Part shown: positions 3,131 to 30,829 of the stretch, piece after piece
How positions within the stretch are numbered: the stretch's first letter is position 1
How the letters are laid out: each line of letters opens with the position of its first letter
Assembly: GCF_000746085.1 (NCBI RefSeq)
Contig: NZ_JQKO01000001.1
Span: 186,001 to 250,000, forward strand
DNA length: 64,000 nucleotides
From: Methylocapsa aurea
GTDB lineage: Bacteria; Pseudomonadota; Alphaproteobacteria; Rhizobiales; Beijerinckiaceae
Direction: 5' to 3'
Notes under the pieces: generated by a model
Database searches by the model: none
What the model saw: only the letters and a program-made list of their open reading frames with translations
What the model was told of the DNA's origin: nothing
Position numbers and translations under genes: made by a program

Positions 3131-5677
3131 TCAGCGGTTCGCCGCGCTGCGCAAGGGGAGGTCCGAGGCGAAATCGCTGATCGGTTTTTGAAATTTCTCG
3201 AAATGGTCCAGACCCTGGATTTGGATCTTGGTTGGCTCGGGCGCGGCGCCGACGAAAAAACCTTCCGCCTTGAACCGCTTGAAAATCTCGAAATGGAGGT
3301 CGCTTCTGACCCGGAACAGCTTTTCCACGTCGCCGACATAGGCGCGCAGCTCGAAATCGAGGGCGTTGGCCGACATTCCCATGAACAATATTTGCGGCGC
3401 GGGCAGTTTCAATACGAGTTCATGGGTTTTCGCGACGGCGATCAGAACCTCGCGAACCCTTTCCGGATCGGCGGTTCCGGCGACCGTGAGAGGGATCGTC
3501 AGTCGGCCAGTGCGATCGTTGCGCACGAGATTCTTGACGACTCCGGTGATCAGGCTCGAATTTGGGATGATGACCTGGGCGAGATCGAAAGTCTCGATTT
3601 CGGTCGATCGCACATTGATCTTGCGCACGAAACCCTGGTCCGAGCCGACCACGATCCAGTCGCCGACGCGCACCGCGCGCTCCCATAATAAGATCAGGCC
3701 GGAAAGAAAGTTATTGACGATCGACTGCAAGCCAAAGCCGATGCCGACCGACAAGGCGCCGGCGACGATGGCGAGCTTTTCGACATTCAATCCGAGATAG
3801 CTGAGCGCGAGTCCGGCCGCGATGACGAATCCGACATAGCCGAGACTTGTCTTGATCGAATTGCTCAGACCGGAATCAAGGCCCAGGAGGGGCATCAGGC
3901 TCGAGTTGAACCATCGTTGCAGCGTATGAATCGCGGCATAGGACAGGCCGAAGATGAGGACGGCCATGGCGATGCTGGAGAGAGAAATCGTGACGTCGCC
4001 GACCTTGAAGCCAAAAAAGGCGGCGCGGAAATCGCTCGGAACATCGGCTGATTGAACGCCCCATGGCGCCAGGATCAAATAGGCGGCGATGATGAAAAGC
4101 GCGAGCTTCATCACGCCGCCCATCAAAATGGCGAGCACCTCGAGCGAGCCGCGCCGCAGCCCGCTGCTGGCGACGAGCCTTTGACTGATGCGACTTGTCG
4201 GCTTCAGTCCGGTCGCGATTGCCTCATCGATCAGAACGGTCGACATGAACCAGAGGCAGCCGACCCAGCCAGTCAGCGCCACTTGGTCAAGCAGGAAGCT
4301 GCCGAAGGCGGCGTATCCGGTCAGAATTGAGACGACAACGGCGAGCGTGATCGTCCAGGCCAGGACGCGAAGAAGCCCGAACCAGTCGCGCTGGCCGGTG
4401 AGGTCAGGACCCAGACAATCTCCGGCGGCTTCATCGGCCGCGGCCGCGCCGCCAATTCCCCATAATCCCACGCCAAGGGTGATCGCTCCGATCAAGGCGC
4501 CGAGGCCACGCAGGGCGACGGAAAATGCCAAGGACGCCCCGACGACGTCGTTCAGGGCCTCTGAGGCGCGGGTCAGCGAAACGATGGCGGCGACGCTGAT
4601 CGCGACGCGGGCGACTCTTTCGCAGACGGGGGTGCTCAGTTTCGGCAGGCGCCAATTGGGGCGGGTCGGCGCAAACAAGCCTCTTGCGATGCCGACGGTG
4701 ATGGCGACTCGAAACACGCCGTCGCTGAGCGCCAGGAAGAACGGCTCCAATCGCGCGTTGCTGAGATTGAAGGCGTCAAAAACGGCGCTGATGACATAAA
4801 CCGCGGCGATCGGGGGGGCCGCCAATGTCAAGGCGACCCACCAGGCGCCCAGTATTTTCAGAAAGCGGCCTGGGTCCTTGGCGTCGGGACTGCGCGCGAG
4901 CACGCGGCGGGCCAGCCGGGCGAGCGGTGCGTAAAGCAGAAAGATCAGCGCGACGCTGCCCCAGTAGAACAGCAGGCGGTGGCCATCGAGCCGATTGTTG
5001 ATCCCATTGATCCAATTGCGGAACACCGACTGCACGGCGCCAAGATGCTCCGGCGCTTCGCGCCAGACGTCGATCCAGAATGTGGCGCTGGTGATGCTCG
5101 ATGTCCGCACGAACAGAGAGCGGGTGAACAAGGCGCGGCGCCGGGCCGCGATCTGGGTGGCGGTCTGCTGCGCCTGGACGGCGATCAGCCGGGCGTGTTT
5201 TAAGAGTTCGTTGACGCCGTCGTAACTTTTTTGCTGATCGGCGCGCTCGGCTGTGACCGCCGGGCTTTCGGGCTCCGACTTGTCGTCCGGCTTAGGGCCG
5301 AGTTGATCCAAGCGCGTCTGGATCGCGGCGAGGCGCGGCTCAAGCCGCCCGATGATGGCATGCGCCGAGTCCGCGACGGGATCAATCAGCTGGCGGAAGG
5401 CGACCAGTTCCGGATCAGTCAGGTTATGACGGTCGAGATTTGTCTCAATTTGCTTCAGGGCCGCGTGAATCTTGTCGAGTTCTGGGCCGGCTGGCGCCGG
5501 CTCGGGCGCCTCCGGTCCTGCCGCGATGGGCGGGGCGACTTCCGGCGCGGCGGGCGGCGGAGCCGGCGTCTGCGCTTGCGCTGCGGATAGTTGGGTGCGA
5601 GCGGGGCCCTTTGCTTGCGACGGCCCGCCGGAAAGGAGCGCGACGAAAGTCAAGGCGCAGGCAAGGAATTTCAGCAA
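3131..5677 (-). CDS. Large MscS-family mechanosensitive channel with DUF3772 domain
   Basis: The 848-residue product starts with a signal peptide (about 1-22), followed by a Pro/Ala-rich linker and a periplasmic DUF3772 domain (about 65-200). Multiple membrane helices follow (about 240-620), then the conserved MscS pore helix and beta domain (about 630-830) with GIGFGLQSIVNNFLSGLILL and IPNSSLITG. Such channels open under membrane tension and release solutes during hypo-osmotic shock; the large periplasmic variants resemble MscK/YbdG-type relatives. The gene stands between the convergent cupin gene and the co-oriented epmB. Spacing to epmB is 120 bp, so it may or may not be co-transcribed. 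Confidence 0.9.
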   Translation of the reverse strand: MLKFLACALTFVALLSGGPSQAKGPARTQLSAAQAQTPAPPPAAPEVAPPIAAGPEAPEPAPAGPELDKIHAALKQIETNLDRHNLTDPELVAFRQLIDPVADSAHAIIGRLEPRLAAIQTRLDQLGPKPDDKSEPESPAVTAERADQQKSYDGVNELLKHARLIAVQAQQTATQIAARRRALFTRSLFVRTSSITSATFWIDVWREAPEHLGAVQSVFRNWINGINNRLDGHRLLFYWGSVALIFLLYAPLARLARRVLARSPDAKDPGRFLKILGAWWVALTLAAPPIAAVYVISAVFDAFNLSNARLEPFFLALSDGVFRVAITVGIARGLFAPTRPNWRLPKLSTPVCERVARVAISVAAIVSLTRASEALNDVVGASLAFSVALRGLGALIGAITLGVGLWGIGGAAAADEAAGDCLGPDLTGQRDWFGLLRVLAWTITLAVVVSILTGYAAFGSFLLDQVALTGWVGCLWFMSTVLIDEAIATGLKPTSRISQRLVASSGLRRGSLEVLAILMGGVMKLALFIIAAYLILAPWGVQSADVPSDFRAAFFGFKVGDVTISLSSIAMAVLIFGLSYAAIHTLQRWFNSSLMPLLGLDSGLSNSIKTSLGYVGFVIAAGLALSYLGLNVEKLAIVAGALSVGIGFGLQSIVNNFLSGLILLWERAVRVGDWIVVGSDQGFVRKINVRSTEIETFDLAQVIIPNSSLITGVVKNLVRNDRTGRLTIPLTVAGTADPERVREVLIAVAKTHELVLKLPAPQILFMGMSANALDFELRAYVGDVEKLFRVRSDLHFEIFKRFKAEGFFVGAAPEPTKIQIQGLDHFEKFQKPISDFASDLPLRSAANR

Positions 5678-16222: not shown

Positions 16223-16312
16223 GGAGGGGTGGCCGAGTGGTTGAAGGCGCACGCCTGGAAAGTGTGTATGCGGGAAACCGTATCGCGGGTTCGAATCCCG
16301 CTCCCTCCGCCA
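16223..16312 (+). tRNA. tRNA-Ser (anticodon GGA)
   Basis: The 90-nt sequence folds into a complete class II tRNA: acceptor GGAGGGG/TCCCTCC, anticodon stem CACGC/GTGTG with loop CTGGAAA (anticodon GGA), a long variable arm, T-arm GCGGG-TTCGAAT-CCCGC, and an encoded CCA. Its 3' end is duplicated at 22282-22296, marking it as an integration site. Confidence 0.97.
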
Positions 16313-16313
16313 C
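16299..16313 (+). repeat. attL-like site: tRNA-Ser 3' end
   Basis: The 15 bases CGCTCCCTCCGCCAC at the tRNA 3' end recur exactly at 22282-22296. tRNA 3' ends are the classic attachment site for island and phage integrases. Confidence 0.7.
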
Positions 16314-16389
16314 ATCAGAACAAAACTGCGAACGCCGTTCGTCGGGCAGGGTGCTTCACTCCCAACCAGCCTTACCTGTTTGGAGAGCC

Positions 16390-16747
16390 CCCAACAACGC
16401 CTCCAGCTACATCTCGGCCGACCTCGCCAAATGGATCGACGGCCAGAACATGGAGCATGTCCGCGCTGCGCCCTATCATCCAATGACCCATGGCAGGATT
16501 GAGCGCTGGCATCTGACGCTCAAAAGCCGCATCCTGATCGAGACCTATTGCCTGCCGGCGATCTCGATGCGCAGATCGCGGACTTCGTCGCCGACTACAA
16601 CGACCGGCGCCATCACGAGAGCATCGACAATCCGACGCCAGCCAACGTCTACTTCGGCCGCGGCTCGCCATTCTCATCGAACGGGAAAGGATCAAACGAC
16701 GGAGCATAACCAATCGCCGCTTGCGGCGCCGTCGGAAAGCCGCATGA
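16390..16747 (+). pseudogene. IS3-family transposase (integrase-core) 3' remnant, frameshifted
   Basis: Translation from about 16390 gives NNASSYISADLAKWIDGQN and then APYHPMTHGRIERWH, typical of the rve integrase core of IS3-family OrfB. After residue LP (about 16560) the matching sequence continues in another frame (DFVADYNDRRHHESI, NPTPANVYFGR). It then shifts again to finish (LIERERIKRRSITNRRLRR) with a stop at 16745-16747. At least two frameshifts and loss of the 5' half make it non-functional. It starts only 80 bp after the tRNA-Ser gene. Confidence 0.8.
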
Positions 16748-16886
16748 CGTCACAAACCAGACGAGCCAGAGCCTCTCTTATTTTAAGCCGCCGACTGTCC
16801 TAAAAACTTGACGACCGATACCAGCGGCCTGCCTGTAGCCGGACGATTGCCAGCGCGTTCTGGTGCGGAAGATCCTGTCAAGGCCG

Positions 16887-17609
16887 TCAATGCCCGTGAT
16901 CGTGGTCGTGATCATCATGCTCATGGTGGTCATGGTCATGATTTTCCTTTTTGACCTTCGGCTTGATCAGCGCCTTGGCCAGAAATGTCTCGCAGGCCAT
17001 CACGCCATCATCATCGATCAGATGTTCAACGCCTTTGCGGGTCATGCTTTTGACCGGCGCGTCCAGAGCCTTCAAAGCCTCTTTCGTTTTGGTCATAGCG
17101 TCGAGCGGCGCGACGGGATCGGCGTCGCCATGAATGAGCAGGATTTGCGGCTTCGCCACGATCTCGGCGCTCTCTGCTTCGCCGCCGCTGTACGTCCCTG
17201 AAAAGGCGACTATGCCGCCGATGGTGTTGGGGCGGCGCAGGCCGACATGAAGCGCCATATCCGCGCCTTGCGAGAAACCGACCAAGGCCAGATGGCTGTC
17301 GTCGAGACGGCGCTTGGCCAGCATCTCATCCAGAAATGTGTTGAGGGCCGCGGCGGCTTCCTTGATCCCGGCCTGGATCTCGTCCGTGCTTTTGCTCTCG
17401 GTTTCGAACCATTTCCGGCTATTCGGCTGTTTTCCAGGCAACGGCGCCTCGGCCAGCAGAAAATCGGCTTTGAGCATCGTCGGCTGCCAATTGATCGCGA
17501 TGTCGACGAGTTTTGCATCCGCCGCGCCCGGCTCATCGAGCAACACGACAAGATAGACCGGCTTGCCGCAGGACATGGCTGCGAGGCAGGCTCCCTCTTT
17601 GATTTCCAT
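16887..17609 (-). CDS. Carboxylesterase/phospholipase-type alpha/beta hydrolase with His-rich tail
   Basis: The 240-residue product is an alpha/beta hydrolase with nucleophile Ser113 in GFSQG, Asp164 in HGDADPV and His196 in GVEHL, matching the phospholipase/carboxylesterase (YpfH/dienelactone-hydrolase-like) group. The start at 17609 follows GAGAGGAG at ideal spacing. Unusually, residues 224-240 are HDHDHHEHDDHDHDHGH, with nine histidines in seventeen residues, resembling metal-storage tails of urease/hydrogenase chaperones and CobW proteins. The substrate is unknown. The gene lies between the IS3 remnant and alr inside the tRNA-Ser island. Confidence 0.82.
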   Translation of the reverse strand: MEIKEGACLAAMSCGKPVYLVVLLDEPGAADAKLVDIAINWQPTMLKADFLLAEAPLPGKQPNSRKWFETESKSTDEIQAGIKEAAAALNTFLDEMLAKRRLDDSHLALVGFSQGADMALHVGLRRPNTIGGIVAFSGTYSGGEAESAEIVAKPQILLIHGDADPVAPLDAMTKTKEALKALDAPVKSMTRKGVEHLIDDDGVMACETFLAKALIKPKVKKENHDHDHHEHDDHDHDHGH

Positions 17610-17674
17610 GCTCGTCTCCTCTCGAAACGCGGCAGCGGGTGAATGGGCCCATATCAAAGATGCGCCCGGCCCGC

Positions 17675-18802
17675 TCACAGCTTCTGATAGCGGCGATGAC
17701 ATCTCTGGCCGAGCCGCGTCAAAACCTCGTAGCCGCTGATGCCGGCCGCCGCCGCGAAATCATCAATCGTGATCGACGGACCGATCAATTCGACGATGTC
17801 GCCGCGCTCAACATAGCCGGAATCGCTGGTGTCGACGGCGACGAGATCCATGCCGACCCCGCCGATATAGGGGCAGCGCTTGCCTTGCACGATCGCTACT
17901 CCACCCGCTCCATTTTTGGTTTTGGTGAGGCTCTGCGGGATGCCATCGGCGGTTCCAGCACTGATCGTTGAGATGCGCCGCGGCCCGCGCGCAGCCCAGC
18001 CCTGATCGTCGCCGACGCGTTCGCCGGGCTCCAAAATGCGCACTTGGATCACTTGCGATTCAAGCCGTATGACGGGCTTCATCGGATTGGGTCGCCCGGG
18101 CGCCGGATTGCCGCCATAGAGCGCATAGCCCGGCCGCACGACATCATAGAGCGGATTGGCTTCGAGAAAGATCGCCCCTGAATTGGCGATCGAGGCGCGC
18201 GCGTTCGGCAATCTCGTCCGCATGATTTCGAACTTTTCGATCTGTTTGGCGATCATCGCCTCATGCTCGGCGCGGGCGAGTTGCGTCATGACGAGCTTCA
18301 CGTCGAAGAGATGCGAAAGATGAATGCCGTGCTCCAGATCGTAGGGCTTGAGGCCAAGCTGATTGAGGCCGGTTTCAAGACGAAAGGCGGCGGGAAGCAA
18401 TCCGCCTTTTGGCGCGCGCCGCCCCGTCACGGCGCAATATTGCCCCCAATCTTCGATCTCAGGCACGGAGCAGAGCACTGGCGCCAGATCGAAATCGGCA
18501 AAAAGCGGCGCGGTGTCGGGCCGCATTCCGTTCAACACGAAGATTGCGGCGTCAGGCGCAATCGCGCGGGCGGCGCGGCCTTCGAAAGCATGCGCGACGA
18601 AAAAAGTCTTGCAGCCAGCCTCATAAAGCGCCTTGACGACGGGGCGCAACCCCAGGCCGTAAGCATCGGCCTTGACCACGGCGCCGCATTCGGCGTCGCC
18701 GCAGACGACCCGCAAGGTCTGCCAATTGGCCACGATCGCAGCGAGATCGACCGTCAGGATCGTACCCGCTTCGCTGGAGGTGACTTCCGTGGTGCGGTCC
18801 AT
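17675..18802 (-). CDS. Alanine racemase homologue lacking key catalytic residues
   Basis: The 375-residue product has the full Alr fold: PLP lysine Lys44 in VVKADAYG, the RPGYALYG segment (223-230) and a complete C-terminal beta domain. Several signature residues differ. The region normally reading VGYG has VGDD (Asp265/266), so the catalytic tyrosine is missing. The usual GYADGY is GTADGI (Thr284). DTGMNRLG is ETGLNQLG, replacing the carboxylate-binding Arg by Gln148. GRVSMD is GGVGMD. Core alr in Rhizobiales often lies beside dnaB/radA, which are absent here. I infer an island-borne paralogue with changed or lost racemase activity, so I withhold the alr symbol. Confidence 0.8.
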   Translation of the reverse strand: MDRTTEVTSSEAGTILTVDLAAIVANWQTLRVVCGDAECGAVVKADAYGLGLRPVVKALYEAGCKTFFVAHAFEGRAARAIAPDAAIFVLNGMRPDTAPLFADFDLAPVLCSVPEIEDWGQYCAVTGRRAPKGGLLPAAFRLETGLNQLGLKPYDLEHGIHLSHLFDVKLVMTQLARAEHEAMIAKQIEKFEIMRTRLPNARASIANSGAIFLEANPLYDVVRPGYALYGGNPAPGRPNPMKPVIRLESQVIQVRILEPGERVGDDQGWAARGPRRISTISAGTADGIPQSLTKTKNGAGGVAIVQGKRCPYIGGVGMDLVAVDTSDSGYVERGDIVELIGPSITIDDFAAAAGISGYEVLTRLGQRCHRRYQKL

Positions 18803-18865
18803 TCTTGTCCGTTATTTTGCGCCTGCCAACTGGGCAGCCCTTTACAGAGCAAGAAGTCTGCCGGT

Positions 18866-19177
18866 TTATTCGGCCGGCGCGGGCGCCTCGGTCTCCTGCG
18901 TCATACGGCTATGCTTGATGCCGTAAACAAAATTGATAACGAGACCGATCGCAAGCCATATAGCCAGCCTGACCCAAGTGTCGCCGGGGAGCCTCAGCAT
19001 CAGGAAAATCGGATTTTCCTCAAAGGGATCCTGCGGCGCTGGCCATAATCCGCGTTCGGCCATCATTTCCATGAGATCCCGGAAGGTAAGCTTGAACCGA
19101 AGACGCCAACGCGCGCAGAGGATGATAATCTCGCGGTCAAAATGGCGGCCTTTTAAGAGATCATCTACGCTCGGCAT
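18866..19177 (-). pseudogene. Chimeric ORF: IS6-type transposase N-terminus joined to amino-acid permease C-terminus
   Basis: The 103-residue frame starts with 44 residues typical of the IS6-family transposase N-terminus (LLKGRHFDREIIILCARW, RDLMEMMAERGL). It changes at about 19045 to a tail typical of APC-superfamily amino-acid permeases (LMLRLPGDTWVRLAIWLAIGL, then YGIKHSRM). The IS6 helix-turn-helix and catalytic parts and almost all of the permease are gone. It looks like a deletion junction between an IS copy and a permease gene; whether the fused frame is translated is unknown. Confidence 0.75.
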
Positions 19178-19305
19178 GGCGGTTGCTTTCACTCTTGTCA
19201 CTCCCTCACCGGCAAATATGCTCCGCTTGCGCCAGAGCCTCCTCGTCTGCCCAACCATCAAGCGTCGCAACCGCCTCGTGAATATCGTTGGCCCGCGCTG
19301 GGCGA

Positions 19306-19776
19306 TGACGATCGCTAAGCCGCGCCGGGTGGTCGCCACGGTGGAATGGCATTTGGGCGAACTTTGTCCGCGCGTCGGCTTCATCGTGACCAACATGGCG
19401 AGGCCTCCCGAGAATGTTGTCCTTCTACAACAAGCAGGGGACATGTCAGCGGTGGATTAAGGAAGGCAAGGGCGCGGTCAGACGGACGCGGTTCTTATGC
19501 CGCGCGTTTGCGGCCAACACGGTCCGCCTTCAACTTCATGCGCTGACCTACAATCTCGGTAATTTTCTGCGCGCGCTGGCGACGCCGGAGCCGATGAAGG
19601 ATTGGTCGCTGACGAGCCTGAAGGAAAAGCTGATCAAGATCGGCGCGAAGGTCGTTAGCCACAGGCGCTATGTCGCATTCCGAATGGCCGAAGCCGCCAT
19701 TTCAGGCAACCTCTTCGCAGACATTCTGGGGATGATCGCGGAACTGCAGCCACCGCAAGTTGCATCGTCAGCTTAA
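19306..19776 (+). pseudogene. IS1380-family transposase 3' remnant, frameshifted
   Basis: Frame 1 from about 19306 reads RRVVATVEWHLGELCPRVGF and TNMARPPENVV. After a shift near 19420 the adjoining frame continues with FYNKQGTCQRWIKEGKGA, FAANTVRLQLHALTYNLGNF and KLIKIGAKVVSHRRYVAFRM to a stop at 19774-19776. These blocks are characteristic of the C-terminal half of IS1380-family (DDE) transposases. The 5' half is missing. The 128 bp between this and the IS6 fragment contain no intact gene. Confidence 0.8.
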
Positions 19777-19974
19777 TGCGTCCGGCGTCGCGCATCCCAT
19801 CAAAAGCCAGGCGAAAGATGCGTCTTAACGACGGAAAATTTGGGAGCTTCAGCGTTCCGCCCGACCTCGGAACGTCCTACGCTTTTCGCCAACGTCTCCG
19901 CGGCGATCGGGGCTTGCCAATAACCACGAACAGGTGCAGGTTTGTTTTCAATCGGCGCTATCTGGAGAATGTCG

Positions 19975-22068
19975 ATGAATTGGGTTGGAAACGATAAGCC
20001 GAAGGCGGCGGTGGGCCTCGCAGCGTTTTTCGTCGGGGCGATTCTAGCTGCCGTTTGCCCCGCGAAGGCGCTTGTCCAGTGCCCCGTTACGCCGCCCACC
20101 ATGACGATCAAGATTTACAACGATTCCGACGATCAATATCTCTTTCCCGAGCTTGAGACCGGCCTCGGCGCCGAGGATGTCTGGATCCAGGCGATCTGCA
20201 AGGTGCCGAACAGTCAAATACCCAGTCATCAGTACCCGCGGACGTTGACCAACAGATTCTACATCAATCCGGACGGCGGCATCGCACCGCACCAAAGCGT
20301 GGTCATCACGCTTCCCCTTTATACGCAACTGGTTGCTTCCGTAAGCCCGAACGCGAACGACCAATATGCGGAATGGTGGCAGGGCCAGAACATACAATTG
20401 TTCACCAGCCCGACGTCGACGCCGCCAAAGGCGTATCTTGAGGCTTATCAATCAAAATCGAGGACGGGCCAGACGCCGCTGACGTCGCTGGCGGCGAACC
20501 CCACCTGGCCGACCTGCCCGGTGCCGTGCAAACTGGTATTTTTCAAGGATACCATGGGCACGCTGCCGAAGAACGGCCCGAGCCAGCTCATCGAAGCGAC
20601 CCTCGGCGCCCGGCAGGCGCAAAAGGTCGTTAATGATTCCCCGCCAAATTCGCTCGACATCCGCAACGCCGATTTTGACGTGAGTTACGTCAACGTCGCC
20701 TATGCGCCGGCTGCGATGGGGCCATACCAGAACGATCAGGTCGGTTATGTCGGTTCGCCTATGGCGATGGCGACCGCCCAGGCCCGCCTCAATAAATTCA
20801 AGACGGACTATCCGGGTTGGCCGCAATTCGTGGTCACCTATACGGATAGCACGCCGCCGGAAACAATTCTGAAATTCGCCTCGCCGCTTGAAGTATTTGC
20901 GAGATTGAGCCCGCCTAGCCCGAACCCCCCGCCCGATCTGACCGCGCCGCCGCAGTGGCCCAATAAATTGTGGGCTCCCATTGAGAATCTGCGGACCGAT
21001 TGGAAGAAATACACCGCGTCCTGCCGCCATAGCGATCGAGGGTCCACGACATTTTGCGACGCCCTCCTCGACGTGCGGGATCTCATCGTTGCGAATTACA
21101 ATCAATATGTCGCGCTCATCAAAAACAAGACCTGCACAGGAACCGCCGTTCCGAAAACAGACGATGCGATCATATCGCATGCCTATGGATGGGCTCCGTG
21201 GACCGCGGCGAATGAAGTGGGCAAAGGGTGCAGCGCGACGGCGAACTTGCTGGAGGACACGCCGGGCTACTGGACCCAGGCGCGAGGCAAACCTAAAGAT
21301 TATACCAAATATCTGAAGGTCAAGCTCGAATTCGATAAGTTGAACTACGGGACTCTGCCCAGCCCGGCATACGTGTTCAACCCGTGGGTGAACCTCATTC
21401 ACAACAAGACCTATCTGGACATACCCGGCGCATATGCCTATTCGGTCGACGACGCCGTGGGCAACATTCAGGCTGAGGCAACGGGATATATCATTGATTT
21501 CGCAAGCTTGGAGCATCTTGAGAATAAATTTCCGGCCGAGCCGCCGATCAATATTGCGCTCGGATATTCGGCGCAATCTCCAATCAGGTTTTCGAGCTAT
21601 CGCGTCTGCGTCAACGATTTGGCCCACGACAAGCCAGTCAACGAATTGAATCCGGCGTTTATCATCAACGCCCGCGATCCTTCCTCGTGCCCCGTGTACC
21701 TTATCGACAATGGCTACAATAAGAGCGCCCCGCAAACCTATACGTTCACGATCACCAAGGCGCCGCCGTTCACGGAATTTACGATTCCGCAAGTCAATGC
21801 TGGCGTGCCCAAATGGGATAATAGCTCGCACTCAATACCGAACACGAACACGACCAACATAATCTATTGCAACGGCAATACGTCGACGGCGCCCTTTCAG
21901 CAGTCGAGTAAGGCTTGGTGCTGCGATTTGAAATACAGCACCGGCGTTTGGGCGTACACAAAGCCGGATCCAACCAGCGCTCATGCGACGCAGGTCCACA
22001 CGGCTGTGACCAATCCAGCGCTGCCGAACTCGACCACCACCGACAAGGCCTGCAACCTCGGGCATTAG
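19975..22068 (+). CDS. Large secreted protein of unknown function, possibly thaumatin-like fold
   Basis: The 697-residue product begins with a signal peptide (about 1-34, ending CPAKA). I chose the ATG at 19975 because GGAGA lies six bases upstream. The mature part starts with a beta-rich domain (TIKIYNDSDDQYLFPELETG) and contains LIEATLG followed by DFDVSYVNVAYAPAAMGP. That pattern recalls thaumatin-like and GH64 proteins (a TL strand followed by D-x-DVS-V). The middle is Pro-rich (about 300-325) and many Cys suggest disulfides. No membrane anchor is seen. Codon use looks less GC-rich than the neighbours. It lies next to IS remnants in the tRNA-Ser island. Function unknown; the thaumatin relation is inference. 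Confidence 0.75.
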   Translation: MNWVGNDKPKAAVGLAAFFVGAILAAVCPAKALVQCPVTPPTMTIKIYNDSDDQYLFPELETGLGAEDVWIQAICKVPNSQIPSHQYPRTLTNRFYINPDGGIAPHQSVVITLPLYTQLVASVSPNANDQYAEWWQGQNIQLFTSPTSTPPKAYLEAYQSKSRTGQTPLTSLAANPTWPTCPVPCKLVFFKDTMGTLPKNGPSQLIEATLGARQAQKVVNDSPPNSLDIRNADFDVSYVNVAYAPAAMGPYQNDQVGYVGSPMAMATAQARLNKFKTDYPGWPQFVVTYTDSTPPETILKFASPLEVFARLSPPSPNPPPDLTAPPQWPNKLWAPIENLRTDWKKYTASCRHSDRGSTTFCDALLDVRDLIVANYNQYVALIKNKTCTGTAVPKTDDAIISHAYGWAPWTAANEVGKGCSATANLLEDTPGYWTQARGKPKDYTKYLKVKLEFDKLNYGTLPSPAYVFNPWVNLIHNKTYLDIPGAYAYSVDDAVGNIQAEATGYIIDFASLEHLENKFPAEPPINIALGYSAQSPIRFSSYRVCVNDLAHDKPVNELNPAFIINARDPSSCPVYLIDNGYNKSAPQTYTFTITKAPPFTEFTIPQVNAGVPKWDNSSHSIPNTNTTNIIYCNGNTSTAPFQQSSKAWCCDLKYSTGVWAYTKPDPTSAHATQVHTAVTNPALPNSTTTDKACNLGH

Positions 22069-22389
22069 CTCTGCCCGCCGCCTTGCCAACGCCGGTTCCG
22101 ATTGATCTCGCTTAAGCAGTTGCAATGCGGTTTCGATGGATGAAAGTTGAAGACATATAGCAACTGTGGTCCGGGCCATGCGATCAGATCGTTGACGTCG
22201 CCTCATGACGCGATAACCTTGGCGTTCAATTCGTTGAGTAGCTTCATATAGTTCAAATCAATACGATAAAAGTCGGGCGGACGCTCCCTCCGCCACCTAT
22301 GCATTTTGTCTTTGATCTTGCTGGCCGCCGTTTGGATAAGAGCGCCTTAGCTGGCTGTGAGTGGATGGAATTTGGGAGGAACAGCCGAT
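22069..22389. other. Intergenic region holding the island's right end
   Basis: No gene is supported. On the minus strand short stretches such as LLYVFNFHPS read like fragments of a coding sequence but are broken by stops. The attR-like repeat (22282-22296) lies near its right end. Confidence 0.4.
22282..22296 (+). repeat. attR-like site: copy of the tRNA-Ser 3' end
   Basis: CGCTCCCTCCGCCAC is an exact copy of 16299-16313. No further tRNA sequence precedes it, as expected for the displaced half-site left by integrase-mediated insertion. Confidence 0.65.
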
Positions 22390-22617
22390 ATGTTCGAGTG
22401 GTTCAAGAACCTCTTGAGGAAATATGTCATCCAGGACGTGCCGATGGAGCTTGCGATGTGCGAATTCGGGTGCAGGGTCAAGGAATGCCGGCGCGGGGAA
22501 TGGCAAACGTGCGAAAATAGGATTCTTGATATGGAACGTGAGGCCGCCTACGCTCAAAAAGTTTTAGATTCCAATTTCAATCCTGGGGGCGGCGGATTAG
22601 AACGGAAGCCAAATTAA
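22390..22617 (+). CDS. Small Cys-containing hypothetical protein
   Basis: The 75-residue product starts at ATG 22390, nine bases after a strong GGGAGGA site. Four cysteines occur in CEFGCRVKEC and C-terminal to it (QTCE), hinting at metal binding or disulfides. The N-terminus MFEWFKNLLRKY is amphipathic. I do not recognise a characterised family. It is the first gene outside the tRNA-Ser island. Confidence 0.6.
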   Translation: MFEWFKNLLRKYVIQDVPMELAMCEFGCRVKECRRGEWQTCENRILDMEREAAYAQKVLDSNFNPGGGGLERKPN

Positions 22618-22997
22618 TTCTAATTTAGTTCACGCATTGAACGAGATTTTATTCAGTTTTTTTGAGAGCTCCGGCCATTGCGGGCGCAAGCGCATGTTTT
22701 GGCAATGTGGAAACCAGAGCGCATTAAGAATTAAAAATGCGGAAGAAGTTAAAGCGGCGCCCAACTCCGCTGAATAGGGAGGCGCGCTGGCGCCGCTGAG
22801 CAGGATGTCGGCAGCCGGATTTTTCGGCTGTGTCCACGCCCTAGTCCGCATCTTCCGACGCCGAAATCCTGCCGCACGGACATGGTGGAAGCCGTTGCGC
22901 TCTCCATTTACGGGATTCTCAAGAATTCATTCTATCGCTAGAGTGAGAGAATTCGGCGGGCGGCGGGCTTGGGTCGGGACCGCACCGGGAGGCGTGG
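22618..22997. other. Intergenic region before the DivL-like gene
   Basis: These 380 bp hold no supported gene. The sequence near 22620-22670 is AT-rich and may contain promoter elements. No palindrome of the dispersed families is seen. Confidence 0.35.
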
Positions 22998-25535: not shown

Positions 25536-27097
25536 ACGCGATGGCGGTTGAGGCGGCGCTGGAAACCAAGCCCGATACGATCTGGCCGCGCGCTCTCGAG
25601 GGCGAGGCGAGCGTTCGGGAGCTTGCGGCCGATGTCGCCGCATTGATTGGTCCAGGCGATCTCGTGACCCTGTCCGGCGATCTTGGCGCCGGGAAAACGA
25701 CCTTCGCCCGCGCGCTGATTCGCCTCCTCACGGGCGAGCCCGATCTTGAAGTTCCAAGCCCGACCTTCGTCTTGATGCAGGTCTATGAGGGCGAGCGCTA
25801 TCCGATCGTTCACGCCGATCTCTACCGGATCGGCAAGCCTGATGAACTCGCGGAACTTGGCTGGGAAGAGGCCTCCGAGGGGGCGCTTGTTCTCGTCGAA
25901 TGGCCGGACCGGGCCGGGGAATTTCTGAAGGCCGATCGGCTTGATATCGAATTCAACCTTGACCCCGATCGCGGCGAATCCTTCCGCGCGGCGACCTTGA
26001 CCGGCATCGGGGCATTCGCCGCGCGGCTCGGCAAGGCCAAGGCGATTCACGACATCCTCGAGCGCAGCGGCTGGAGCGACGCGGAGCGTCAATTCATGCA
26101 GGGCGATGCTTCGAGGCGCGCCTATGAGCGCTTGGTCAAGCCGGATGGACGAAGCGCCATCTTGATGATTTCGCCAAAGCAGTCGGATGGACCGCCGCTG
26201 CGCTACGGCAAGCCGTATAGCGCGATCGCGCGGCTCGCTGAGGACATCCGGCCTTTCATTGCAATCGACCAGGGCCTGCGCCAGCAGGGATTGTCAGCGC
26301 CGGAGATCTTCGCCTTCGACCTCCATGCCGGACTGATTCTACTGGAGGATCTCGGCTCGGAGCCGATTGTTGGCAAAGATGGAGTGAATCAGGAGCGCTA
26401 CGCCTGGGCGGTGACGGCGCTCGCAACCTTGCACAATGCGAACCTTCCCGACACGCTGCCGGTCGACGACAATGAGACCTATCGAATTCCAAATTATGAC
26501 CTCGATGCGCTTTCGATCGAGGTCGAACTGTTGCTCGACTGGTATGCGCCCCATGTCGCCGGCATCCAACTCGCCTCCGGCGCCAAGGCGACCTTCGTCA
26601 ATCTTTGGCGCCGGGCGCTGCAGGAGGGCGTCACCACGCGGACGACCTGGACGTTGCGGGATTATCATTCGCCTAACATTATCTGGCTGGCCGAGCGCGA
26701 AGGCGTTGCGAAGGTCGGCATGGTCGATTTCCAGGACTGCGTCCTCGGCCATCCCGCCTATGACGTCGTCTCGCTGCTGCAGGATGGGCGGGTTGACGTT
26801 CAAAATGTCATCGAATTGAAATTGCTCACTCATTACGCCCGCCTGCGGCGAGAGGCGGACCCCGGCTTCGACATGGCCGATTTTGCCCGCGCCTACGCCG
26901 TTCTCGGGGCGCAGCGGGCGACCAAGATCCTGGGGATCTTCGCCCGCCTCGATGCGCGCGACCACAGGCCGGATTATCTCGTCCATCTGCCGCATGTCGA
27001 AAAATATTTGGTCAAGGACCTTGCTCATCCGATTCTGGCGGACCTCAAGATCTGGTATGAGACGCATCTGCCGAGGATCTTCGATCCCGCCCCCTGA
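25532..27097 (+). CDS. TsaE-AmgK fusion: tRNA t6A ATPase plus MurNAc/GlcNAc kinase
   Basis: The 521-residue product joins two enzymes. Residues about 20-155 are TsaE (YjeE), with Walker A GDLGAGKT (49-56), the ATPase needed for tRNA threonylcarbamoyladenosine synthesis. Residues about 170-515 are an APH-type phosphotransferase like AmgK, with LRDYHSPNIIWL and DFQDCVLGHPAYD as catalytic and metal-binding segments. AmgK phosphorylates MurNAc at the anomeric position in peptidoglycan recycling. The next gene encodes MurU, the partner enzyme, which supports the assignment. Its start overlaps the divL stop (ATGA). Rhizobiales often carry this fusion or a tandem of the two genes. Confidence 0.88.
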   Translation: MNAMAVEAALETKPDTIWPRALEGEASVRELAADVAALIGPGDLVTLSGDLGAGKTTFARALIRLLTGEPDLEVPSPTFVLMQVYEGERYPIVHADLYRIGKPDELAELGWEEASEGALVLVEWPDRAGEFLKADRLDIEFNLDPDRGESFRAATLTGIGAFAARLGKAKAIHDILERSGWSDAERQFMQGDASRRAYERLVKPDGRSAILMISPKQSDGPPLRYGKPYSAIARLAEDIRPFIAIDQGLRQQGLSAPEIFAFDLHAGLILLEDLGSEPIVGKDGVNQERYAWAVTALATLHNANLPDTLPVDDNETYRIPNYDLDALSIEVELLLDWYAPHVAGIQLASGAKATFVNLWRRALQEGVTTRTTWTLRDYHSPNIIWLAEREGVAKVGMVDFQDCVLGHPAYDVVSLLQDGRVDVQNVIELKLLTHYARLRREADPGFDMADFARAYAVLGAQRATKILGIFARLDARDHRPDYLVHLPHVEKYLVKDLAHPILADLKIWYETHLPRIFDPAP

Positions 27098-27123
27098 GCG
27101 AACCGCAACAGGCTGTTGAGACG

Positions 27124-27849
27124 ATGTCCTCTTTCATGCCCGGCAAAGCCATGGTCTTCGCGGCGGGTCTTGGCAGCAGGATGCGCCCTTTGACGCAAAC
27201 CATGCCAAAGCCGCTGATCAAAGTGGCGGGCAAGCCGATGATCGACCATATGCTTGACCGGTTCGCGGCGGCCGGGGTCGGCACCGCAATTGTCAATGTG
27301 CATTATTTGGCGGACCAGATCGAGGCGCATCTTGGCGCCCGAATAAAGCCCAAAATCCTGATTTCGGACGAGCGCGAAAGACTTCTCGATCAAGGCGGCG
27401 GGATCGGCAAGGCCTTGCCCTTGCTGGGGCCCGAGCCGTTTTTTCTCTCCAACACCGACGCTTTTTGGATTGAAGGGCCAAAGGATAATCTGCGCCGCCT
27501 CGCCGCGGCCTGGGACCCCGGCGCAATGGACATTCTGCTGCTCGTCGCGGCGACGACGGCGAGCATTGGAGTCGATTGGCCGGGCGATTTCCTGATGGCG
27601 ACGGATGGCCGCCTGACGCGGCGCGAGGAGCGTCAGGTCGCCCCTTTCGTCTATACCGGCGTCGGCATCATCAAGAGCGAACTTTTCGAGAACGAGACCC
27701 GAGAGGTCTACGCGCTCGCGCCGTTCTTCTTTCAGGCGGCCGAGAAGGGCAGGCTATTTGGTCAAAGACTCGACGGACTCTGGCTGCATGTCGGCACGCC
27801 GCAGGCCGTCGAGGAAGCAGAGCAAAGCATCGCGCGGAGCGTGCTTTAG
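27124..27849 (+). CDS. murU: N-acetylmuramate alpha-1-phosphate uridylyltransferase
   Basis: The 241-residue nucleotidyltransferase has the signature AAGLGSRMRPLTQTMPKPL (about 13-31) and the NTDAFW metal-binding region. It follows the AmgK-containing fusion by 26 bp. MurU turns MurNAc-1-phosphate into UDP-MurNAc, by-passing de novo synthesis and fosfomycin-sensitive MurA. The context with AmgK separates it from mannose-1-phosphate guanylyltransferases, which it resembles. Confidence 0.88.
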   Translation: MSSFMPGKAMVFAAGLGSRMRPLTQTMPKPLIKVAGKPMIDHMLDRFAAAGVGTAIVNVHYLADQIEAHLGARIKPKILISDERERLLDQGGGIGKALPLLGPEPFFLSNTDAFWIEGPKDNLRRLAAAWDPGAMDILLLVAATTASIGVDWPGDFLMATDGRLTRREERQVAPFVYTGVGIIKSELFENETREVYALAPFFFQAAEKGRLFGQRLDGLWLHVGTPQAVEEAEQSIARSVL

Positions 27850-27963
27850 CGCGGTCGCCAGATCGATGCACGCCATAAGATCAATTTTCGTTCCCTAGTT
27901 GTTCTTGCGCGCGGGCTTGATCTCGGCTAAGCTTCGGGCAAGCTGCATTGCGGGGTTCGCCCA

Positions 27964-29502
27964 ATGGTCGTCAGGGTCGCGACGGTTGCGTTTGAAGGCA
28001 TCGAGGCGCGGCCCGTCGATGTGCAGGTGCAAATCGCCAATGGCAATGTGGTTTTTACCGTCGTCGGCCTCGGCGACAAGGCCGTAGCCGAGTCGCGCGA
28101 AAGAGTGCGCGCCGCGCTGAATGCCTCTGGCCTCGCTTTGCCAGCCAAGCGCATTACGGTCAATCTGGCCCCGGCCGATCTGCCGAAAGAGGGCAGCCAT
28201 TATGATTTGCCGATCGCGCTCGGCATCATGGCCGCCATCGGAGCCATTCCGCAAGACGCCTTGCAGAATTACACCGTCTTGGGCGAACTCGCGCTCGATG
28301 GAACCATCACCGCCGTCACCGGCGTTCTCCCCGCCGCCATCGCTGCGAACGCTCGCGGCCACGGCCTTATCTGCCCGCAGGCGAGCGGCCCGGAGGCCGC
28401 CTGGGCCAGCCAGGACATCGATGTCCTGGCCCCAATTTCCCTGATCCAGTTGGTCAATCATTTCAAGGGGACGCAGGTCATGGCGCCGCCGCGCCCGGCC
28501 ATTCGCAGCGCGGTGGGGACGCAGCCGGACCTCCGCGACGTCAAGGGTCAGGAAAGCGCCAAGCGCGCGCTGGAGATCGCCGCTGCCGGAGGCCATAATC
28601 TCTTGCTCAACGGGCCGCCAGGCGCTGGCAAGTCGATGCTCGCCGCGCGGCTGCCGTCGATCCTGCCGCCGCTGTCCCCGCGCGAACTTCTCGAGGTTTC
28701 GCTGATCCACTCGGTCGCGGGCGATCTTGCCGGCGGCGCGCTCACCGACAGACGTCCGTTTCGCGCGCCGCATCATTCGGCGTCGATGGCCGCTTTGGTT
28801 GGCGGCGGCTCGCGGGCGCGGCCGGGCGAAATTTCTCTCGCCCATCATGGCGTTCTCTTTCTCGACGAATTGCCCGAATTCCAGCCGCAGGTGCTGGACA
28901 GCCTGCGCCAGCCCCTCGAAACCGGCGAAGTCGCAATCGCGCGCGCCAATCATCGCGTTGTCTATCCCGCGCGGTTCCAGCTTGTCGCGGCGATGAACCC
29001 CTGTCGGTGCGGCCATGCGACGGACCCCGGATTCGCCTGCAACCGGCAACCGAACGCCCGCTGCATCGCCCAATACCTGGCGCGCCTTTCGGGTCCCTTG
29101 CTTGACCGCATCGATCTTCATGTCGAGGCCCCGGCTGTCGCCGCCGCAGACTTGATGCTGCCCCCGCCTGCGGAAGGCTCAAAGGAGGTCGCCGCGCGCG
29201 TCGCCGCCGCCCGCGCGATTCAGGTGCGCCGTTACGCAGAACTCGGGCTGCCGGGAATCGGATCGAATGCTGCGGCGCCTTCGGCAGTCATCGAGGCGGT
29301 GGCGCAACCGGACGCCGGCGGTCTCGCGCTGGTCCGCGACGCTTCCGACCGCCTGCATCTCTCGGCGCGCGGCTTCCATCGGATCTTGAAGCTCGCCCGC
29401 ACCATCGCCGATCTTGACGCGACGGAGAGGGTCGGAAGCTTGCATTTGGCCGAAGCTCTATCCTACCGGATCGATACGACGCGGCAGGCGCGGGCCGCGT
29501 GA
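27964..29502 (+). CDS. comM: ComM/YifB-family Mg-chelatase-like AAA+ ATPase
   Basis: The 512-residue product has the Lon-like N-terminal domain (FTVVGLGDKAVAESRERVR, about 38-56), a Walker A GPPGAGKSMLAARL (about 218-231), Walker B with LFLDELPEF, and a cysteine cluster CRCGHATDPGFACNRQPNARC-like segment characteristic of ComM. ComM is a helicase that promotes branch migration of incoming single-stranded DNA in natural transformation. The start ATG at 27964 fits the usual MVVRVATVAFEGIEA-type N-terminus. Confidence 0.92.
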   Translation: MVVRVATVAFEGIEARPVDVQVQIANGNVVFTVVGLGDKAVAESRERVRAALNASGLALPAKRITVNLAPADLPKEGSHYDLPIALGIMAAIGAIPQDALQNYTVLGELALDGTITAVTGVLPAAIAANARGHGLICPQASGPEAAWASQDIDVLAPISLIQLVNHFKGTQVMAPPRPAIRSAVGTQPDLRDVKGQESAKRALEIAAAGGHNLLLNGPPGAGKSMLAARLPSILPPLSPRELLEVSLIHSVAGDLAGGALTDRRPFRAPHHSASMAALVGGGSRARPGEISLAHHGVLFLDELPEFQPQVLDSLRQPLETGEVAIARANHRVVYPARFQLVAAMNPCRCGHATDPGFACNRQPNARCIAQYLARLSGPLLDRIDLHVEAPAVAAADLMLPPPAEGSKEVAARVAAARAIQVRRYAELGLPGIGSNAAAPSAVIEAVAQPDAGGLALVRDASDRLHLSARGFHRILKLARTIADLDATERVGSLHLAEALSYRIDTTRQARAA

Positions 29503-29599
29503 TCCGCTCGAGCGCAATCAGCCGGCCCCGCCATCACCGGGGAGAGGATTGGGGGCGCGAGCTAGACAGCGCTCCAAACTCGCGGCTATGTGTTGGCGC

Positions 29600-30829
29600 A
29601 TGACCAATCGAGACAAAGCCATCGCGCCGGATTTAGGCTCTTCCCTCAGTTCGAGCGGATTGACGCAGGCCCGCGCCAGTGCGAAAAATTTCAATCATTG
29701 GCTGATCTCAAAGGCGCTTCCGCTTTGGTCGACGGCCGGTTTTGACGCAAGGCGCGGATGCTTTCACGAGCGCCTGGATTGGAGCGGCGGGCCAGTCGGC
29801 GCGGTTCCGCGACGGGCCATGGCGCAGGCCCGGCAGATCTATGTCTTCGCCCATGCGGCCTATCTTGGCTGGTTTCCAGAAGGGGCGCGCCTTGCGGAGA
29901 TCGCCTTGGACTCTCTGCTGCGCGATTTTCGCGATGGTGGCGGCGCCATGGGCGGTTTCGCTTTTTCAGTCGACGCCGAAGGCGCTCCTGTTTCAAAAGT
30001 TCGCGATGCTTACGCGCATGCCTTCATTCTTTTCGCCCTGGCTTGGGTCTACCGCTTGAACGGCGATTCCCGCCTCGTGGCAATGGCCGATGAGACGATC
30101 GCGTTTATCGACGCCCATCTCGAGGATCGAGCGCACGGCGGCCTCTTCGACCAGGCTCCCATCGAAGATCGGTGCAAGCGGCAAAATCCGCATATGCATC
30201 TCCTGGAATCCTATCTCGCCTTGGAGGTTGCGGCTCCCGGCAAAGGCTATATCGAGCGGGCCAAAAAACTTGTCGCTTTGTTTCAAGACCGCATGTTCCT
30301 TGCCGATCCGGGCGTCCTGCTGGAATATTTCGCGCAGGACTGGAGCGCTCATCCTGACGCCGTGAAACGCCGGATTTTCGAGCCCGGCCATCACTTCGAG
30401 TGGGTGTGGCTCCTGCGCGAGTACGAAAAGCTGTCCGGCGAGGACCTCCAATTCTGGATCAAGCGTCTTGATCACAGCGCGCGCGGCGCCGGCCTTTCTG
30501 AAAATGGGCTCGTGTTCGACGAGGTCGCGACCGATATGAGCGTGCTGAAGAATTCGCACCGGATCTGGCCGCATACGGAAGGCGCGAAAGCGGCGGTCGC
30601 TCGGCATTTGCTCGGCGACGCCGATGCGGCGTCATTCGCATCGGCGATGAGCGACGCCTTGTTGGAAAACTTTCTCGACAGGCCCTTTGAGGGGGGCTGG
30701 ATCGACCAACTGGATGCGGCGCGGCGGCCGCTTGTCGGCTATGTCCCGGCGAGTTCGCTTTACCACCTGTTTCTGGCGGGCGCGGAACTGTCGCGCGGCT
30801 TTTCATCCGAAGAGAGGTCGGCGCTCTAG
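29600..30829 (+). CDS. AGE-family sugar epimerase/isomerase
   Basis: The 409-residue product is an (alpha/alpha)6-barrel protein of the N-acylglucosamine 2-epimerase family, which includes mannose isomerases and cellobiose epimerases. Diagnostic blocks are ARQIYVFAHAAYLGW, NPHMHLLESYLAL with the catalytic-site histidine, EPGHHFEWVWLL with a second catalytic His pair, and the final RRPLVGYVPASSLYH. I chose the ATG at 29600, with 29588 as an alternative; the frame upstream overlaps comM. The substrate cannot be told from sequence; a mannose or mannose-6-phosphate isomerase is plausible next to hldE. Confidence 0.85.
   Translation: MTNRDKAIAPDLGSSLSSSGLTQARASAKNFNHWLISKALPLWSTAGFDARRGCFHERLDWSGGPVGAVPRRAMAQARQIYVFAHAAYLGWFPEGARLAEIALDSLLRDFRDGGGAMGGFAFSVDAEGAPVSKVRDAYAHAFILFALAWVYRLNGDSRLVAMADETIAFIDAHLEDRAHGGLFDQAPIEDRCKRQNPHMHLLESYLALEVAAPGKGYIERAKKLVALFQDRMFLADPGVLLEYFAQDWSAHPDAVKRRIFEPGHHFEWVWLLREYEKLSGEDLQFWIKRLDHSARGAGLSENGLVFDEVATDMSVLKNSHRIWPHTEGAKAAVARHLLGDADAASFASAMSDALLENFLDRPFEGGWIDQLDAARRPLVGYVPASSLYHLFLAGAELSRGFSSEERSAL

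Follow-up and report, generated by a model that had tools for sequence, protein, structure and literature searches.

A probable decayed island at tRNA-Ser(GGA) in Methylocapsa aurea, bounded by a tyrosine integrase attachment site

The window studied here, a 64,000-nucleotide stretch of a Methylocapsa aurea contig, holds an intact tRNA-Ser(GGA) gene (16223 to 16312, forward strand, identified with ARAGORN) whose 3' end recurs nearly 6 kb further on. As the first-pass annotation had stated, the 15-mer CGCTCCCTCCGCCAC lies at 16299 to 16313 and again, without a mismatch, at 22282 to 22296, both on the forward strand. The proximal copy consists of the final 14 nt of the tRNA gene, CGCTCCCTCCGCCA (16299 to 16312), and the one C that follows. 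The displaced tRNA fragment has the same orientation as the tRNA and is found outside any conserved protein domain, between the last gene of the interval (end at 22068) and a small ORF to the right of the island (22390 to 22617, forward strand), homologues of which occur elsewhere in 6 of the 14 genus relatives.

Between the two copies, the forward strand carries an IS3-family transposase remnant (ca. 16391 to 16849, with a weak rve_3 match below the cut-off as part of the evidence), the C-terminal part of an IS1380 transposase (19317 to 19826, from family matches), and an orphan gene of 696 codons for a secreted-type protein (19978 to 22068). On the reverse strand are an Abhydrolase_2 esterase with a His/Asp-rich tail (16887 to 17702; start codon uncertain, 17609 or 17702), an alanine racemase homologue (17675 to 18802), the C-terminal stub of an amino acid permease (18866 to 19011, from homologue matches), and an IS6-type transposase remnant (ca. 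19045 to 19232, labeled from one annotated match), with matches on Methylocystis, Methylocella, and Methylocapsa plasmids. Three transposase remnants and a His-tailed esterase had been expected from the first reading and were borne out. The truncated permease stood in part: residues 52 to 100 match permease C termini, but the ORF is a chimera in which residues 1 to 45 match other loci with a transposase and the permease stub runs together with the IS6-type remnant. The island ORFs that were scanned with Pfam gave no tyrosine-family integrase, and the listed Phage_integrase matches of the whole genome (9 of its own 12) all fall outside the interval, in agreement with the earlier remark that no integrase is inside. 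Along similar lines, Pfam gave no transfer or integration genes in the listed island ORFs, only transposase remnants.

The racemase homologue passes TIGR00492 (196.6 bits; cut-off, 168) and retains the PLP lysine. It had been described as aberrant, which fits the Thr that replaces the Tyr of its GYADG motif. We tried 20 homologues in the alignment, from which G035, G027, and G038 were dropped (no frame passing the motif filter), giving 18 rows including the window. At the Tyr position, there is Thr in the window and G011, Phe in G023 and G005, and Leu in G013 and G017, and the Tyr is kept in the 12 other aligned homologues. Judging from these residues, the racemase-like clade of the six genomes may have a different activity. 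An alanine racemase match was absent in 11 of the 14 genus relatives (this query, E of 0.001), and nearly all genomes of other genera gave one. Outside the island, the cassette is also present in G023 and on a 186-kb G011 contig, with 80 to 86% identity to the esterase-racemase DNA of the window; in G023, the two genes are preceded by an intact permease homologue of 516 aa.

The orphan protein, initially noted as an unknown secreted protein, indeed had no match in Pfam, PHROGs, NCBIfam, or PDB sequences. A single homologue was found among 98 relatives (G047, 34% identity), and an AlphaFold2 model built from the two-sequence alignment had a mean pLDDT of 27.3. Plasmid searches with this protein and with the flank ORF gave zero matches. 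By eye, the G047 homologue (L122, 7354 to 8862, reverse strand) adjoins UDP-glucose epimerase-like and UTP-glucose-1-phosphate uridylyltransferase-like genes.

Taken alone, without the relatives, the 15-mer repeat is suggestive. It appeared in none of 100 shuffles, and the own assembly (34 contigs, 3.97 Mb) has exactly the two copies, not the many unrelated ones that would speak against an island. A rough estimate of the chance of an exact repeat is ca. 2e-4 for one given start and ca. 1e-3 with a few allowed starts. The repeat by itself is not decisive, because the window contains 12 same-strand 15-mer pairs at most 10 kb apart (10 separate repeats).

In tyrosine recombinase core sites, inverted half-sites flank a short spacer, and the spacer is identical in both att sites. 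This is the arrangement found at 22276 to 22294, a perfect inverted repeat (GGCGGA-CGCTCCC-TCCGCC) in which the spacer and the right half are identical to the tRNA, while the left half differs there (GAATCC). From the first base of the 7-nt spacer through CCA, the site is identical to the tRNA. The distal copy can also be written as CGGA plus CGCTCCCTCCGCCA, an 18-mer at 22278 to 22295.

We followed both strings through the relatives, and it is this comparison that decides the matter. Across 15 genus genomes, the 14-mer core was single and at tRNA-Ser(GGA) in 11, absent in G006, and single in G004, but there away from the tRNA, of which the search gave no close copy in that genome. It was double in the own genome (G000) and in G013, whose second copies are 5,983 and 9,447 bp further downstream, respectively, on the same strand. 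CGGA precedes the core in all three off-tRNA copies (G000, G013, and G004) but not in the tRNA. Of 397 family genomes, 15 contained the 18-mer, at 16 places in all, and a reversed-pattern control gave 0 in every row. Ten of these places have, on the CGGA side, a tyrosine integrase of one and the same family, which we take to be P4 type from its domain order, with 132 to 222 nt from the BLAST start to the site; excluding the window, G004, and G013, the count was 8 of 13. In one of the ten (G432), the match is fragmented, and the integrase may be broken. The six places lacking an integrase were the window, G067, G379, G064, G302, and one of two in G266.

The integrases of G013 and G004 (403 to 405 aa, with Arm-DNA-bind_3, Phage_int_M, and Phage_integrase domains) begin ca. 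140 nt from the 18-mer site and read away from it. In G013 and G353, tRNA-Ser(GGA), integrase, and 18-mer are in one stretch, the integrase between the other two, and in G353 the 18-mer is 8,456 bp downstream of the tRNA. Among the 12 stretches fetched at other 18-mer sites, G353 alone showed tRNA-Ser(GGA), several of the others being short contigs. In G002 (64% identical to that of G013) and G014 (69%; ORF of 265 aa), an integrase of the same clade immediately follows tRNA-Ser(GGA). In IMG/VR, the 18-mer was present in five stretches, with the integrase seen in one of them. The integrase of Caulobacter phage DMCA is 53.5% identical, but a look at the 700 bp upstream did not show the 18-bp core. 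Given the 18-mer and the integrase beside the site in relatives, the distal copy is best read as the attR (22276 to 22295) of a sister integrase element family. The four further bases (CGGA) held in common with integrase-flanked sites support the integrase-mediated insertion proposed at the outset.

The elements of G013 (9.4 kb) and G353 (8.5 kb) have the same target tRNA and the same 18-bp distal site as the window, and in G004, with the same distal site, the att-integrase end is seen. They differ from the window in having an integrase ca. 140 to 170 nt from attR, and none of the island genes of the window turned up in these or in any other of the fetched sister elements. The 210 bp from the orphan gene to attR showed no similarity to the att-integrase region of G004 and G013 beyond the 18 bp. 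The orphan gene occupies the place of the sister elements' integrase, on the other strand, and for this reason the integration module would appear to have been lost or replaced.

Several features of these elements were recorded as well. On contig C164 of G266, 18-mer att sites are in tandem at 3251 and 11338, 8,087 bp apart, with an integrase at the distal one only, which looks like accretion. In the G353 element, tRNA-Ser(GGA) is closely followed by tRNA-Leu and tRNA-Asp-like genes, and RTX-repeat proteins are also encoded. That of G013 encodes a DUF927 protein (L178, 13569 to 16526, forward strand), a possible replication or satellite-type module. No conjugation genes were seen in the G013 and G353 ORFs scanned (10 proteins).

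The tRNA-Ser(GGA) gene adjoins tex in G000, G003, G007, G008, G009, and G011 and is 2 to 4 kb away from it in G002 and G014; behind it are EVE, glyoxalase, and MarR genes in G011 and a MarR gene in G007. All 20 loci fetched from relatives have tsaE behind a kinase gene, and four of them (G004, G005, G006, and G021) extend <5 kb upstream of the kinase. Only G011 among these 20 has tex, tRNA-Ser, and kinase together, where tRNA and kinase are separated by 8.4 kb of quite different genes in which the core does not recur. The synteny comparison suggested by the first-pass annotation was successful in one respect: the gene order from tex to 22390, conservation of which would have argued against an island, was not conserved at the loci fetched, but no empty site was found at the kinase, tex, and tRNA loci in relatives or with the flank ORF and the G011 EVE gene. 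The suggested GC profile was likewise of partial help. The island (58.2%) is below its 6-kb flanks (63.7% and 63.1%), and GC is as low in 1.9% of the 581 intervals of that length within the 64 kb, but there is no rise at 22296. The right edge is not marked by composition, because the 700 bp beyond attR (22297 to 22997) are even lower (52.9%).

We consider it very probable that 16313 to 22281 is the remnant of an element integrated at tRNA-Ser(GGA), with attL at 16299 to 16312 and attR at 22276 to 22295. The lack of integrase and transfer genes and the failure to find an empty site in relatives stand against it, as do the 6 of 16 18-mer places (the window included) with no adjacent integrase, the low GC right of attR, the dissimilar 210 bp before it, and the sister elements devoid of island genes. 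In the proposed sequence of events, a P4-type tyrosine integrase would have recombined an attP, GGCGGA-CGCTCCC-TCCGCCA, with the junction of T-stem and acceptor stem of tRNA-Ser(GGA), the attB (placed by eye). The crossover would fall inside the 7-nt CGCTCCC spacer, as the point at which identity with the tRNA begins would lead one to expect, so that the tRNA 3' end was restored by the element (attL) and the old end displaced to 22282 to 22295, within attR. Deletion or replacement would later have removed the integrase as IS elements and cargo built up. A related integrase could presumably still join attL and attR, releasing a circle of 5,983 bp.

A rather different history, to which we give a smaller but still appreciable probability, is that the att scars are real and the present content came later, the original element having been deleted and the esterase-racemase-permease cassette and the orphan gene brought in by IS transposition. 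The three IS remnants inside the island favor such a replacement, as do the cassette copies without a tRNA-Ser in G023 and on the 186-kb G011 contig and the fact that no cargo is common to the sister elements; on the other hand, no complete IS or target site duplication was identified around the cassette.

Less likely, in our opinion, is that the island never had an integrase and was a nonautonomous passenger that was inserted in trans and may still be moved that way. The own genome has 12 Phage_integrase matches, 8 of which were fetched, and on contig C20 (within 26500 to 30500) an integrase is located ca. 160 nt behind tRNA-Ser(CGA), a second tRNA-Ser used by the clade. Its frame is open over 411 codons, and it is 62 to 64% identical to the G013 and G004 integrases. 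Mobilization in trans would be possible because this same-clade integrase is present in the same genome, and there are five further 18-mer places without an adjacent integrase, one of which (in G266) is 8,087 bp from an integrase-bearing copy. However, the 3' end of tRNA-Ser(CGA) differs from the window core, the C20 enzyme is on the other side of its tRNA, and the IS remnants and permease stub point to decay. We regard as quite unlikely the stronger version, a still-mobile, integrase-less mini-island whose att pair, as the sequences might permit, would be worked in trans by the C20 integrase or by incoming sister elements; if true, cargo would be shuttled by att sites alone. Finally, a chance recurrence of the tRNA 3' end in a region that IS elements have made variable is highly improbable, since the other 15-mer pairs in the window and the varying neighbors upstream of the kinase across relatives, which it could invoke, are set against the full inverted-repeat core of the distal copy and an 18-mer with CGGA found at 16 places (control, 0), 10 of them beside one integrase family.

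The favored reading, an integrated element in decay, can be compared with two described classes. In the accessible part of the Islander description (PMC4383910), tRNA islands have, as here, an intact tRNA gene, a displaced 3' fragment downstream in the same orientation, and the island between them, with a length within 2 to 200 kb and a crossover at or near the T-stem/acceptor junction, the T-stem junction being listed among the usual crossover subsites. The difference is that the window interval is without an integrase, and for this reason the Islander filter, as given there, would reject it. Cis-mobilizable elements (CIMEs), according to the accessible part of PMC5704250, are att-bounded elements that have lost their integration and transfer genes. 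The window island similarly keeps attL and attR and has no such genes, but it shows no sign of ever having moved in cis with a neighbor. By analogy, it works like a CIME, whether or not it derives, as CIMEs do, from an ICE or IME. No report of this att site appeared in the literature searched by topic or by the core string (listings and abstract starts), and the core is unmentioned in the accessible part of PMC11476347.

The locus is a genuine but ordinary decayed tRNA-Ser island, of a kind already known. It illustrates how, when neither an empty site nor an integrase of its own is available, the boundary of a worn-out island can still be supported through a distal att that is found beside an integrase in relatives. 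The 18-bp attR signature is usable to find other decayed islands, and a single P4-type integrase clade has repeatedly targeted tRNA-Ser(GGA) within the family.
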